Below are positions 55,253-59,735 of a stretch of DNA of 64,000 bases, piece by piece (the stretch's first letter is position 1; the number at the start of each line of letters is the position of its first letter). The stretch is from positions 3,038,001-3,102,000 of the forward strand of contig NZ_JRMH01000001.1 in NCBI RefSeq assembly GCF_000803315.1. The letters are read 5' to 3'. This DNA is from Pectobacterium actinidiae. GTDB taxonomy: Bacteria > Pseudomonadota > Gammaproteobacteria > Enterobacterales > Enterobacteriaceae. The notes beneath the pieces are model-generated. The model worked only from the letters and a program-made list of their open reading frames with translations, was not told where the DNA came from and made no database searches. The translations under genes and the position numbers were made by a program.

Positions 55253-55379
55253 TATACCCGTCATACTTCACGTTGCATGTGTGTTGGTTACGTTAACTCA
55301 CCCGAATCACTTACTTGAGTAAGCTCATCGGGATTCCTTAACTTACCGCCTGCCTGCAACACGAATTATTTAGGGTATA
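55253..55379 (-). repeat. ERIC element, canonical length (127 bp)
   Basis: Starts TATACCCGTCATACTTCACG and ends AATTATTTAGGGTATA, exactly 127 bp, with the core CGAATCACTTACTTGAGTAAGCTCATCGGGATTC in the middle. It lies upstream of mlaA, with no inserted hairpin module. Confidence 0.92.
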
Positions 55380-55765
55380 TACCCGCGACCGAAAATGGGT
55401 ATTCCCGGTATCAGCCACAGCCTATCGGGCTGAGCGACAAGGGCGGGATATCGGCCAACAGTGTAACATTTTATCGCTCCATCGCTACGTTGGCTTACGC
55501 ATTACTGCATTTTCAGAGGTTTACCATTTTTCTTATGGGAACAATTCGCAGCGTCGTTGCGACACGCGCTCCAGCGTGGGCGACAGCACGGTATTTCCTT
55601 GCTCCCCTCACAGCATAGCACCACCAACCTAAATCAGTGAGCCATGCTGCTCCATCCCATGTTGTAAAAACTGACTACGCTTATCATCGGGGTTGTCGGT
55701 GATCGCCCCTCAACGTCAGTACCGTTAGCCACATACCAAACGACCCCTTTGTCGAGAGAATCACT
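55380..55765. other. mlaA-yfdC intergenic, no gene seen
   Basis: Divergent promoter region. Contains an imperfect CTATCGGGCTGAG-type hairpin near 55425. The 12 bases at the ERIC junction, GGGTATATACCC (55373-55384), form a perfect palindrome. Confidence 0.4.
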
Positions 55766-56704
55766 ATGAATCCACCTTCAAAATCCAGACAAATCCAGCA
55801 AGAGAAAGAAAAGGATGTTGCGGTAGAAAGTGAGGAAAGCACACAAGGAAAAACGATCGATGTAGACGAGGATCACTTGCCTTCCCCCGCCGCCGCGATC
55901 CATGAAGAGATTCGTCAGGAAGGACAAAAGGAGCTGGAACGCGATGCAATCGCATTATTGTGGTCGGCGATTGCGGCAGGGATCTCCATGGGAACCTCAT
56001 TCATGGCGGTCGGCATGCTCCACAACCCTCTGGTTGGCGTACCCGGCGGCTTTCTGCTGGAGTGCTTCGGTTACACCATCGGCTTTGTGATTGTCATCAT
56101 GGCACGCCAGCAGTTGTTCACCGAAAACACGGTCACAGCGGTGCTTCCCATCATGCATAGGCCCACGCGGAGTAATTTCTACCTGCTTGGCCGATTATGG
56201 TTCGTCGTGCTGGCTGGCAACCTGATTGGCACAGCTCTGGCCGCCCTCGCCTTTACCTACATGCCGGTTTTTGATGGCGAAACGCGGGAGGCTTTGGTCG
56301 ACATCGCGATGAAGGTCATGAAGCACTCGCCAACAGAGATGTTTGCCAATGCCGTTGTCTCCGGTTGGATTATTGCCACGATGGTTTGGATGCTGCCCCG
56401 CGCCTACTCCGCCAAACTGTGGATTATCATCATCATGACCTGGATGATTGCTTTCAGTAACCTCACCCACATCGTGGCCGGCGCCTCAGAGATTTTCTAT
56501 CTGGTGTTCATTGGTCACATCCCTTGGCAGGACTTCATTTGGCCGTTTGCTCTGCCCACATTGGTGGGGAATATCATCGGCGGCACCTTTATTTTCGCAC
56601 TCATCAGCCATGCGCAAATTCGCAACGACATGAGCAGTTCATCTCACGGAAAACGCCAAAAGCAGCGTGAAAGCGAGGAAACAGAACACCGACAGAAACG
56701 CTGA
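55766..56704 (+). CDS. yfdC: FNT-family inner-membrane protein YfdC
   Basis: Formate/nitrite transporter family protein of 312 residues with unknown substrate. A charged N-terminal cytosolic extension (about 70 residues, KEKDVAVESEESTQ) precedes six helices; signatures are SMGTSFMAVGMLHN, LECFGYTIGFVIVIMARQQLFTENT and LAGNLIGTALAA. The C-terminus is highly charged. Followed directly by tRNA-Arg. Confidence 0.92.
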   Translation: MNPPSKSRQIQQEKEKDVAVESEESTQGKTIDVDEDHLPSPAAAIHEEIRQEGQKELERDAIALLWSAIAAGISMGTSFMAVGMLHNPLVGVPGGFLLECFGYTIGFVIVIMARQQLFTENTVTAVLPIMHRPTRSNFYLLGRLWFVVLAGNLIGTALAALAFTYMPVFDGETREALVDIAMKVMKHSPTEMFANAVVSGWIIATMVWMLPRAYSAKLWIIIIMTWMIAFSNLTHIVAGASEIFYLVFIGHIPWQDFIWPFALPTLVGNIIGGTFIFALISHAQIRNDMSSSSHGKRQKQRESEETEHRQKR

Positions 56705-57077: not shown

Positions 57078-58556
57078 ATGAAACTGGAAGATATTGCTAA
57101 TTTTGCTGGAAATGTTGTCACTTTTGCTGGGTTGCCAGCACTGATTTTCTTTAATGTTTCCGCTGTTTTATTTTTCTTAAACGAATGGCGTATTCCTTTA
57201 TTCTGGGGTGCCGCTTCCATCTTTATTTTAGCCTTGATTTATTACATTAGAAATCGAGTCCATCCGAAAAAGTCAACACTTTTTTTATTACTAATGCTTG
57301 CTACTGCAACAGGAAGCGCAGTGTTTTATGACCCTTATCCCAAGATTGCACAGATAAGCATTTCCGGTTTCTACCATGAAAAAGAGGGGGCTTGGGTTGG
57401 TAGTAATACCGATGAAAATACCCAAGACATCATTCGACAAATGGAAGATACGTGGAATCGTGCAACGTCTAAAGAAAACCCATCATTTCGATTTATTGAG
57501 CCTTTTGCTATCAAGAGCTGGCAGTTTCCTACACTGTTTCTAGCACATCGTTCGAAGCAACAAATTATTAAACTGGCAGAAGAAAACTCTCGTTCAGTCG
57601 TAAATCTCGTGGGTTTCACCCGCGATAGCAAACTTGATTCTCTGCATTACAGTCTAAATGAGAAAACACTAGCTCCCAACGAGCACGGTACAAGTCATGA
57701 AAATCGATGGTTTAATAATCTTTTCGCAAAAATAATTGATCACCCCACACTCATCGATAGCCAAAAACGAGAAGTCATCGCCAAGATCCTTTTTATTGAT
57801 ATCAATGCCCGCGCTCTTAGCATTCGAGTCGGTGAAATGGATGCCATTGGTATGGCCAATTTGATTGCTAACATACAAGATGAAATCGTCGCCTTACAGA
57901 AAAAACATTCTTTCATCAAAGACGAACTCAACTACTTGATGGCTGGCTTAACCACGTCTTTCATTGATGTATATGATGATGAATTGCCCAAAGAAATCGC
58001 CGCCGATTTTCTGGTTCAGGCACTCAATTTCTATCCCTATTATCCCTATCCGGATAAAGAAAGCTTCCAACGTGCTTATGTTAAAATGAGCTACGCGAAT
58101 TGGCGTCTGAGCAATGACTCTGAAGATGATGTAACGTTACTTAGCCATTTAACACAAACCACTTATTCTTTGCCAGATATTGAATCTAAAAACGAGGTCA
58201 TCAACGACTTCAGGAATCATGTTTTCCTTCCACATATTTCCCCTGTGATGTTTTATTATATGTTGGAAATGATGAAAACCGCTCACCCACTACTTGATAT
58301 CCCATCTCAACAAGTGGAAAAAGTTCGTGAATTGGAAGAATACACAGACAAATTTCTCAGCTATCATCCTGGAATAGCAAATGACTTCATCGAGTTAAAA
58401 ACCGTACTGCTATATAGTGTATATTACACATGGTACAAGAAGGTCAATTTGGAAAAAGATGCCGCGAGGATATTGAAAAAATATGAAGCGGTTTTGGAAA
58501 ATAATAAAAACATAACGCCATTTTTAATGACTATTAACGAAAAAAAATTGCGGTAA
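57078..58556 (+). CDS. Unknown membrane protein with large soluble domain
   Basis: 492 residues. Three hydrophobic segments lie in the first 90 residues (VVTFAGLPALIFFNVSAVLF, LFWGAASIFILALIYY, TLFLLLMLATATGSAVFY), then about 400 mostly helical residues with no motif I recognise. AT-rich (well below the flanking genes), solitary, downstream of argW. The ATG is preceded by no clear ribosome site. The frame is intact. Function unknown; accessory or recently acquired by composition. Confidence 0.75.
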   Translation: MKLEDIANFAGNVVTFAGLPALIFFNVSAVLFFLNEWRIPLFWGAASIFILALIYYIRNRVHPKKSTLFLLLMLATATGSAVFYDPYPKIAQISISGFYHEKEGAWVGSNTDENTQDIIRQMEDTWNRATSKENPSFRFIEPFAIKSWQFPTLFLAHRSKQQIIKLAEENSRSVVNLVGFTRDSKLDSLHYSLNEKTLAPNEHGTSHENRWFNNLFAKIIDHPTLIDSQKREVIAKILFIDINARALSIRVGEMDAIGMANLIANIQDEIVALQKKHSFIKDELNYLMAGLTTSFIDVYDDELPKEIAADFLVQALNFYPYYPYPDKESFQRAYVKMSYANWRLSNDSEDDVTLLSHLTQTTYSLPDIESKNEVINDFRNHVFLPHISPVMFYYMLEMMKTAHPLLDIPSQQVEKVRELEEYTDKFLSYHPGIANDFIELKTVLLYSVYYTWYKKVNLEKDAARILKKYEAVLENNKNITPFLMTINEKKLR

Positions 58557-58633
58557 AAAACAATAATGACGTCATAAACTCACTGACACATAATCCTTTA
58601 AATGTAGAAGTGGATTTTTAACGAGAATGAGTA

Positions 58634-59735
58634 TATACCCGTGCTCATTGAAGATGCTTGGTTTTATGCAGCAAGGAGATCATGCTTATCCACTATTAAG
58701 ATATTTATTAACGACGAACAGAAAACCGAACTTGAGCACCTTCGTGACACCACTCGTGATGGTCGTGTTCGTGACCGCATTAAAGCCGTTCTTCTTGCCT
58801 CTGAAGGTTGGACTTCTGCGATGATTGCACAGGCTCTGCGCCTGCATGAAACGACAGTAAACCTGCATATCAACGATTACGTCAACACCCGCAAACTCAA
58901 GCCTGAAAATGGTGAATCTGCAAGTCGGCTGAGTGTTGAACGAACTGCTCATTTAATCAGTCATTTATCTCTACATCTGTTCCATCATACTCGCGATATC
59001 GTGGCGTATGTCGAGCAGCGCTGTGCTATCCGGTTCAGTATCCCCAGCATGAACAAGTGGCTGCACCGTCAGGGCTTCACTTACAAAAAACCGGCGGGCG
59101 TACCCCATAAATTCAGTGAAGAAAAACAGAAGCAGTTCATTGAATATTATGAGAATTTAAAGAGAACGGCGAGCAATGAGCCGATTTTGTTTATCGATGC
59201 GGTTCATCCGACACAAGCCACAAAGCTCAGTTATGGATGCATACGGAAAGGGCATAAAAAGTCAGTTAAAACAACGGGAAGCCGAACCTGTCTGAATATA
59301 CTGGGCGCGCTGAATCTGAGCGATATCGGCGGTACGGTCATTCACGATTACAAAACGATTAATGACTACACTATTGCTCTGTTTTTCATTGAGATACGTA
59401 AACGTTACCCTGATTATCGGCAGAAAATCCATGTGATACTGGATAGTGCGGGTTATCACCGAACCCAATTGATTAAAGATTGGGCTTTAGTCGTGAATAT
59501 AGAGCTTCACTATTTGCCGCCTTACAGTCCGAACCTGAACGCCATAGAGCGTCTATGGAAAGTGATGAACGAGCATGCGAGAAATAATCGCTATTTTGAA
59601 AATACCCGCGACTTTCGGGATGCGATATTCAATTTTTTCTCAACCACGCTGCCAGAAATAGCGGACTCACTGACATCAAGAATTCACGACCGCTTTCAGG
59701 TACTCAAACCTGCATCTTGAGGTTTATAGGGTATA
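58634..59735 (+). mobile_element. IS630-family insertion sequence
   Basis: About 1.1 kb with one transposase ORF. Ends are imperfect inverted repeats: TATACCC on the left and GGGTATA on the right, plus an inner matching AAGATGC (58652 on the left; complement at 59712 on the right). TA dinucleotides flank both sides (58632 and 59736), as expected for TA target duplication in IS630/Tc1/mariner. The ends also resemble ERIC ends. Confidence 0.85.
58641..59720 (+). CDS. IS630-family transposase
   Basis: DDE transposase, up to 359 codons. An N-terminal helix-turn-helix region (GWTSAMIAQALRLHETTVN) is followed by the DDE core: LFIDAVHPT (first Asp), HVILDSAGYH (second Asp) and LPPYSPNLNAIERLWK (Glu). 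The open frame begins with GTG 58641, which lies inside the terminal repeat. Relatives start at the KIFI.DEQKTELE stretch, here preceded by ATT at 58695, so the real start is uncertain. The frame is intact. Confidence 0.9.
   Translation: MLIEDAWFYAARRSCLSTIKIFINDEQKTELEHLRDTTRDGRVRDRIKAVLLASEGWTSAMIAQALRLHETTVNLHINDYVNTRKLKPENGESASRLSVERTAHLISHLSLHLFHHTRDIVAYVEQRCAIRFSIPSMNKWLHRQGFTYKKPAGVPHKFSEEKQKQFIEYYENLKRTASNEPILFIDAVHPTQATKLSYGCIRKGHKKSVKTTGSRTCLNILGALNLSDIGGTVIHDYKTINDYTIALFFIEIRKRYPDYRQKIHVILDSAGYHRTQLIKDWALVVNIELHYLPPYSPNLNAIERLWKVMNEHARNNRYFENTRDFRDAIFNFFSTTLPEIADSLTSRIHDRFQVLKPAS

Follow-up and report, generated by a model that had tools for sequence, protein, structure and literature searches.

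A stretch of 64,000 nucleotides from Pectobacterium actinidiae (RefSeq assembly GCF_000803315.1, contig NZ_JRMH01000001.1, positions 3,038,001 to 3,102,000), hereafter the window, carries a copy of the enterobacterial repetitive intergenic consensus (ERIC) and, on the same strand, an insertion sequence (IS) of the IS630 family whose ends resemble those of the repeat. Few enterobacterial repeats are better known than ERIC, on which ERIC-PCR (polymerase chain reaction) typing is based. A reading of the window from its sequence alone had proposed the IS as a possible autonomous parent of ERIC, and the relation between the two elements is the subject of the present analysis. The features are the following, in window coordinates.

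55253 to 55379, plus strand: ERIC copy, 127 bp including one TA per end; inserted unit 55255-55377 (123 bp) plus the duplicated TA
55253 to 55279, plus strand: ERIC left end, TATACCC-n8-TCACGTTGCATG
55353 to 55379, minus strand: ERIC right end, TATACCC-n8-TCGTGTTGCAGG
58634 to 59735, plus strand: IS630 element of the ISEc40 or CCC-type group, 1102 bp; unit 58636-59733 by analogy with an E. coli ISEc40 empty site, with a presumed TA duplication
58634 to 58660, plus strand: IS left end, TATACCCGTGCTCATTGAAGATGCTTG
59709 to 59735, minus strand: IS right end, TATACCCTATAAACCTCAAGATGCAGG
58641 to 59720, plus strand: IS630 transposase frame, 359 codons, with D186/D268/E303
36396 to 36724, minus strand: another ERIC copy, interrupted and long, whose left-end box is intact

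The coordinates of both elements and their TATACCC...GGGTATA ends proved exact when the sequence was read again, and the ungapped matches over 27 bases counted earlier (19 at the left ends, 20 at the right ends) were reproduced. The window ERIC scores 90.6% against the consensus of 28 ERIC copies from its own genome, where this 127-bp repeat with its conserved core has at least 43 matches (40 of 145 candidates scored). Two finer claims of the sequence-only reading hold in part. GT does follow the left heptamer and TA the right one in both elements, but TA occupies that place in just 1 of the 38 IS right ends described below. The inner AAG(A/T)TGC motif is present as AAGATGC at both IS ends and as AAGTTGC at the left of the genome ERIC consensus, but the window ERIC itself reads ACGTTGC and GTGTTGC. 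With the heptamer excluded, the window pair matches at 12 of 20 positions on the left and 13 of 20 on the right, and because 132 (left) and 27 (right) of 125,428 window positions equal or exceed these counts, this pair alone is only suggestive; the similarity gains its strength from the family-wide comparison. The strict pattern TATACCC-n8-T[CG]AAGnTGC occurs three times in the window, at both IS ends and in another ERIC.

The window transposase matches NF033545 at 223.9 bits (cut-off 100), contains DDE_3 and helix-turn-helix domains and has 34 residues between D268 and E303, the DD34E spacing of IS630 transposases; its profile match to the Sleeping Beauty transposase is weak (E 0.0083). The closest named copies of the IS are found in P. 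polonicum at 89% identity, and a genus relative holds 90% copies. To describe the group, ends were obtained for 56 of 80 named loci, plus L032 and L034, and 37 of the 56 were kept together with the window copy, 9 being dropped as extra copies of species already included and 10 for an end that was missing or unlocated. The resulting 38 copies come from 12 named genera and one unplaced metagenome-assembled genome and span Vibrio, Photobacterium, Grimontia, Psychromonas, Colwellia, Paraglaciecola and several Enterobacterales. Because the heptamer served to locate the ends, part of its conservation follows from the procedure, which made no use of positions 8-27. The ends are TATACCCGTGATCATTGAAGATGC on the left and TATACCCaaTTAACTTGAAGATGC on the right, with TATACCCGTGATCATTGAAGATGCTTGATTTTT and TATACCCAATTAACTTGAAGATGCAGGTTTTAG as the majority sequences, and the window IS has the group-specific ends (TATACCCGTGATCATTGAAGATGC and TATACCC...AAGATGC). 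ERIC-like ends are thus kept in the 38 copies and are not peculiar to the window copy. In Escherichia coli the group is represented by ISEc40, whose left end is the same as that of the window IS and whose length is about the same. The Kluyvera IS copy is matched in 924 of 5426 E. coli genomes, in 550 of them over at least 80% of the query, and 12 of the 15 E. coli entries among the matches listed are annotated as ISEc40. Copies from E. coli, Klebsiella and Salmonella share the group's left end. At E 1e-30, the window transposase is matched by 261 of 72,556 plasmid records and by none in the phage collection.

On the side of the repeat, ERIC consensi were compiled for 13 genome lineages, with 97 of 99 copies used in the counts; copies were drawn from BLAST hits, and because the best hits were taken first, well-kept copies are over-represented. 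These consensi contain the same two blocks as the IS ends, in register, as illustrated by the Pectobacterium left end TATACCCGTCATACTTCAAGTTGC and the X. yunnanensis right end TATACCCAATGGATTTCAAGATGC (4 copies). Among the 97 ERIC copies, 71 have the box T[CG]AAGnTGC at positions 16-24 of the left end, and 56 have a somewhat relaxed version of it at the right end; of the 38 IS copies, 28 and 34, respectively, fit these two patterns. A position weight matrix built on IS positions 8-27, heptamer excluded, was run over the 125,428 window positions with ERIC and IS masked. The positions scoring equal to or better than the consensus numbered 2 (left) and 13 (right) for Pectobacterium, 2 and 7 for Kluyvera, 15 each and 0-6 for three Photorhabdus species (0 on the right for P. 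thracensis and P. tasmaniensis), 31 and 3 for X. kozodoii, 15 and 309 for X. budapestensis, and 204 and 36 for X. yunnanensis. Shuffling positions 8-27 reached the observed fit in 0-5 of 20,000 trials for Pectobacterium, Kluyvera, Photorhabdus and X. kozodoii; the remaining lineages gave higher counts, with a maximum of 871 for the Psychromonas left end. As a control, another enterobacterial IS630 group was examined (20 fetched stretches, of which ten end strings were compared with ERIC). Its members start with CTAAATA and, at the best offset, match ERIC at 11-15 of 27 positions; the CCC group reaches means of 17-20 of 27 in the Pectobacterium, Kluyvera, Photorhabdus, X. kozodoii and X. yunnanensis lineages. 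The similarity is therefore far above chance for the main lineages and is not found in the other IS630 group examined. Both refuting conditions named in the sequence-only reading were checked, through the ends of close relatives and through the window-wide and shuffle controls, and neither overturned the link, although the ERICs of Providencia, Fukatsuia, Psychromonas (left) and Vibrio (right) fit badly.

A chance resemblance between TA-ended inverted repeats could still appeal to the window pair, which is just moderately unusual once the heptamer is set aside, and to the few ERIC lineages that at one end fit no better than chance. Against it stand the family-wide test, the shuffles, the composite pattern and the control with other IS630 ends. 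Chance is refuted for the main ERIC lineages and is, taken as a whole, an extremely improbable explanation. The similarity between ERIC and the ISEc40-type IS630 elements is real and general.

The same end code occurs beyond ERIC. In Xenorhabdus and Photorhabdus, some IS copies are adjoined by short elements other than ERIC, which have boxes of this kind and carry local variants of the IS ends (TATACCAATCTAACTTCAAGATGCG, compared with the Xenorhabdus IS end TATACCAATCTAACTTGAAGATGCAGG). In a Xenorhabdus family found at three loci (L117, L119 and L189), the members are 77-79% alike and one end equals the local IS right end but for one base in the first 24. This repeat of about 105 bp lies at 3059-3165, 3057-3160 and 1397-1491 of the respective loci, beside IS copies and beside an ERIC. 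A further locus (L038, from 1117) has three adjoining elements in a row, neighbours sharing TATA: an ERIC, a second short element and an internally deleted IS copy that keeps both ends and measures about 0.4 kb.

Empty sites define the inserted units. At the site of the window ERIC, 13 loci were readable in the genus, including its own, and 8 were filled and 5 empty; the empty form is GTGTGC-TA-TACCCGCG and the filled form GTGTGC-TA-[TACCC...GGGTA]-TA-TACCCGCG. An E. coli ISEc40 copy has the same geometry, with CTGTC-TA-[TACCC...GAGTA]-TA-TATACT when filled and CTGTC-TA-TATACT at two natural empty sites, so that TA duplication is seen for both kinds of element. This duplication and the polymorphic insertion of ERIC are as expected for a miniature inverted-repeat transposable element (MITE) mobilised by an IS630 transposase. 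The TA flanking the IS on the outside is not the target duplication: the empty sites of the window ERIC and of the E. coli ISEc40 place the duplicated TA within TATACCC...GGGTATA, as its first and last TA. The units proper are TACCC...GGGTA, and by analogy the boundaries of the window IS would lie at 58636-59733; no empty site for it was found, the gene on its left being absent from the other 24 genus genomes searched. In P. asymbiotica, three tandem ERIC pairs are spaced by 125 bp and have a TA in common, the spacing expected if a new ERIC copy enters the TA of an old end; such pairs lie on contigs C1 and C2 of genome G181 and on contig C17 of G097. In the window's own genome, ERIC copies with TATACTC on the left (L010, L021 and L022) tend to have GAGTATA or GAGTATT on the right, with exceptions at L015 and L008; this pairing is either a subfamily or a paired change preserving the hairpin.

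The sequence-only reading derived ERIC from the IS by internal deletion or by capture between IS630-type ends. Deletion from one of these IS elements, which would make the IS an autonomous parent in the strict sense, draws on the ends in common, on the summed matrix fit, which favours same-end over swapped-end pairing in 12 of 13 lineages with one tie (the lineages not being independent), and on the deleted relic of about 0.4 kb at L038, which shows that internally deleted copies with both ends exist in the group. Simple identity, however, favours the same polarity in just 5 of 8 genera, with 1 tie, and the interior of ERIC (positions 28-100) has no significant local similarity to the window IS, its score being reached by 208 of 300 shuffles for the copy and 83 of 300 for the consensus. 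The comparison with 19 IS copies of the group was likewise not significant: with the Pectobacterium consensus the score was reached by 33 of 100 shuffles, and with the E. coli sequence, whose interior comes nearest to the group, by 5 of 100. An origin by deletion is unsupported because of this lack of interior similarity to the window IS or the 19 copies, was set aside and is unlikely. Not all MITEs are known to have an interior derived from their parent by deletion. Alternatively, ERIC may have captured or evolved its ends: a structured sequence lying between two TA-flanked IS-type ends may have become mobile, or the boxes may have been selected later as a means of exploiting the transposase. 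The interior of ERIC, not recognisably related to the IS, and the use of the same end code by short elements with different interiors are consistent with this; against it, no intermediate turned up, and the sequences do not show what came first. We give such an origin about even odds; it would be one form of the explanation that follows, and it concerns origin.

We regard ERIC as a non-autonomous element, a MITE, whose ends would be read by ISEc40-group IS630 transposases and which would have been mobilised in trans, mostly in the past; we put the probability of this reading at roughly 0.78. ISEc40-type elements are the best candidates for having spread ERIC, and many present ERIC copies look like leftovers of past activity. 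The two-block ends with their spacing, the tendency to the same left-right polarity, the TA duplication of ERIC and E. coli ISEc40, the overlapping hosts and the presence, next to IS copies, of further short elements using this end code are direct observations. From these we infer binding, cutting and movement in trans, as follows. The inner box T[C/G]AAG(A/T)TGC at positions 16-24 would be bound by the helix-turn-helix domains of a transposase encoded by an IS at another place in the cell, and this transposase would cut at the outer TATACCC; TACCC...GGGTA would then be inserted into a TA that is duplicated in the process. The proposal of an autonomous parent is partly supported, by an end similarity that extends across the IS subgroup and to ERIC lineages in several genera; the deletion origin is not supported, and the window copy is doubtful as an active parent.

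The distribution of both elements lends this reading some support. ERIC is present in 78 of 149 family genomes and matches to the IS group (at least 48% identity) in 11; ERIC is found in 10 of these 11 and in 68 of the 138 others (Fisher p 0.007). ERIC ends match those of an autonomous element in the same hosts, poorly so in a few ERIC lineages. The IS-bearing set was drawn by hand, any piece of at least 48% identity being accepted and two genomes, G036 (40%) and G128 (41%), one of them with ERIC, being left out. In the class sample of 369 genomes, including the window's own, the IS is present in 9 (E 1e-40) and ERIC in at least 4 (E 0.001; two candidates scored per genome). The three other ERIC matches in the class correspond to ERIC cores (G513), to an ERIC-like end (G307) and probably to chance (G279). 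The cores of G513, a member of another family, lie in L271 (1471-1619) and L274, cover positions 31-99 and have strongly diverged ends, and four weak NF033545 matches in this genome are all below the cut-off. The idea of an ERIC core with swapped ends was rejected there, an ungapped comparison by eye revealing a diverged ERIC left end.

A number of results speak against mobilisation by this group. The matrix fit is poor, with many positions scoring as well, for Providencia (945 left, 108 right), Fukatsuia (552, 414), the left end of Psychromonas (13,838; right 16) and the right end of Vibrio (677; left 42), and also for the left end of X. yunnanensis (204) and the right end of X. budapestensis (309). 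The CCC-group means amount to only 14.1 and 11.5 for the Providencia ERIC and 13.8 for the Vibrio right end. For Providencia, for the Vibrio right end and almost for the Psychromonas left end, the match to the CCC group is little better than that to the control group. ERIC ends are no better matched to the IS of their own genus than to foreign ones, 27,834 of 40,320 permutations doing as well, and co-evolution of ERIC ends with the resident IS by genus was rejected on this result. The co-occurrence in the family is inflated because small genomes lack both elements, 68 of the 78 ERIC-bearing family genomes show no IS of the group, and in the class sample no genome besides the window's own holds both. 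ERIC matches were obtained in 418 plasmid records and 55 phage-collection records; fresh insertions on plasmids were rejected for the four E. coli regions read, which are all chromosome-like (cus genes, pepD region). Finally, the window IS is doubtful as an active parent, because it is the single copy in its genome, has ATT at the start position, where three of four relatives compared have ATG (L032, L034 and L083) and the fourth leucine (L033), and departs at residues kept by relatives, for example with C in place of R in GSRTRLN and S in place of G in ILDGAGYH. A GTG inside the terminal sequence is the sole ATG, GTG or TTG in the frame before codon 61. This ISEc40 relative is, on its sequence, probably not active.

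Two of these points, the missing genus-level matching and the many ERIC hosts of the family sample without an IS of the group, would suit another scenario, in which the ends have a common ancestry but ERIC owes its spread to a different TA-inserting transposase, now perhaps extinct, the present IS elements being cousins that do not move it. The match in blocks and spacing is, however, close enough for one transposase to read both, and the available part of a 2018 Photorhabdus paper describes MITEPlu5 indels between strains with CCC-type IS (PMC6267812). We consider this scenario improbable.

Three more ERIC copies of the window, longer than 127 bp and matched piecewise, lie at 3247-3446, 7224-7366 and 36396-36724 (minus strand), and a long ERIC form also occupies the window ERIC site at two other loci (L071 and L075). 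The outer right flanks of the window ERIC (55376-55390) and IS (59732-59746) both carry TATAC[CC/TT]GCGACC, and these flanks are the sole two mismatch-free matches to GGGTATATACYYGCGACC in the genome. A target preference was rejected as the reason, and the likeness is probably a coincidence, because in 28 ERIC copies the flanks are not biased in this way. To the left of the IS (region 56781-58556) lie a tRNA-Arg(CCT) gene and then a gene at 57078-58556; the latter has no counterpart in the 24 other genus genomes searched, which makes a genomic island the probable location of the IS.

The link is already known in kind from Photorhabdus and was partly seen in 2018. As far as the accessible text of that BMC Genomics paper goes, MITEPlu5, a short element of typically 123 bp called ERIC-related, has ends like those of a subset of IS630 elements, the CCC type (ISPlu3, ISPlu8 and ISPlu19), with a terminal TA, seems highly mobile and accounts for 47 indels between two strains that are also described with CCC-type IS (PMC6267812). 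That study concerns one species and a figure of aligned ends; the present one adds ERIC in several genera, 38 IS copies, controls for chance and for other IS630 ends, empty sites and a co-evolution test with a negative outcome, and it names ISEc40 as the group's member in E. coli. The sequence-only reading named no established parent transposase; none is named in the parts available of the reviews of 2007 and 2024, but the MITEPlu5 likeness had been reported. Within its available part, the 2007 review states that, apart from RUP, an IS link had been neither found nor looked for, the corresponding text of the 2024 MITE review contains IS630 0 times, and no other statement of an ERIC-IS630 link was found in the literature searched, much of it accessible in part. 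RUP and IS630-Spn1 of Streptococcus pneumoniae offer a parallel in another host, judged by description: in the portions available, RUP is a MITE that measures about 107 bp, has ends of IS630 type and inserts at TA, and movement in trans was proposed for it as well (PMC2229807, PMC3049150). The repeat itself, also known as IRU, RU-1 or MITEEc1, is 127 bp long and has TA termini.

A bolder version of our reading holds that ISEc40-type transposases read a two-block code which ERIC has in common with at least one or two other families of short elements, of different interior, across Gammaproteobacteria, and that they can still move ERIC wherever an intact copy is present, including E. coli with ISEc40; on the evidence of the ends, this may be true or false with equal probability. 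A named, common and testable candidate transposase brings the old question of ERIC within reach of the bench and suggests why strains may differ in their ERIC patterns. If the bolder version is true, ERIC would be not an orphan repeat but a member of a MITE superfamily with a living mobiliser.

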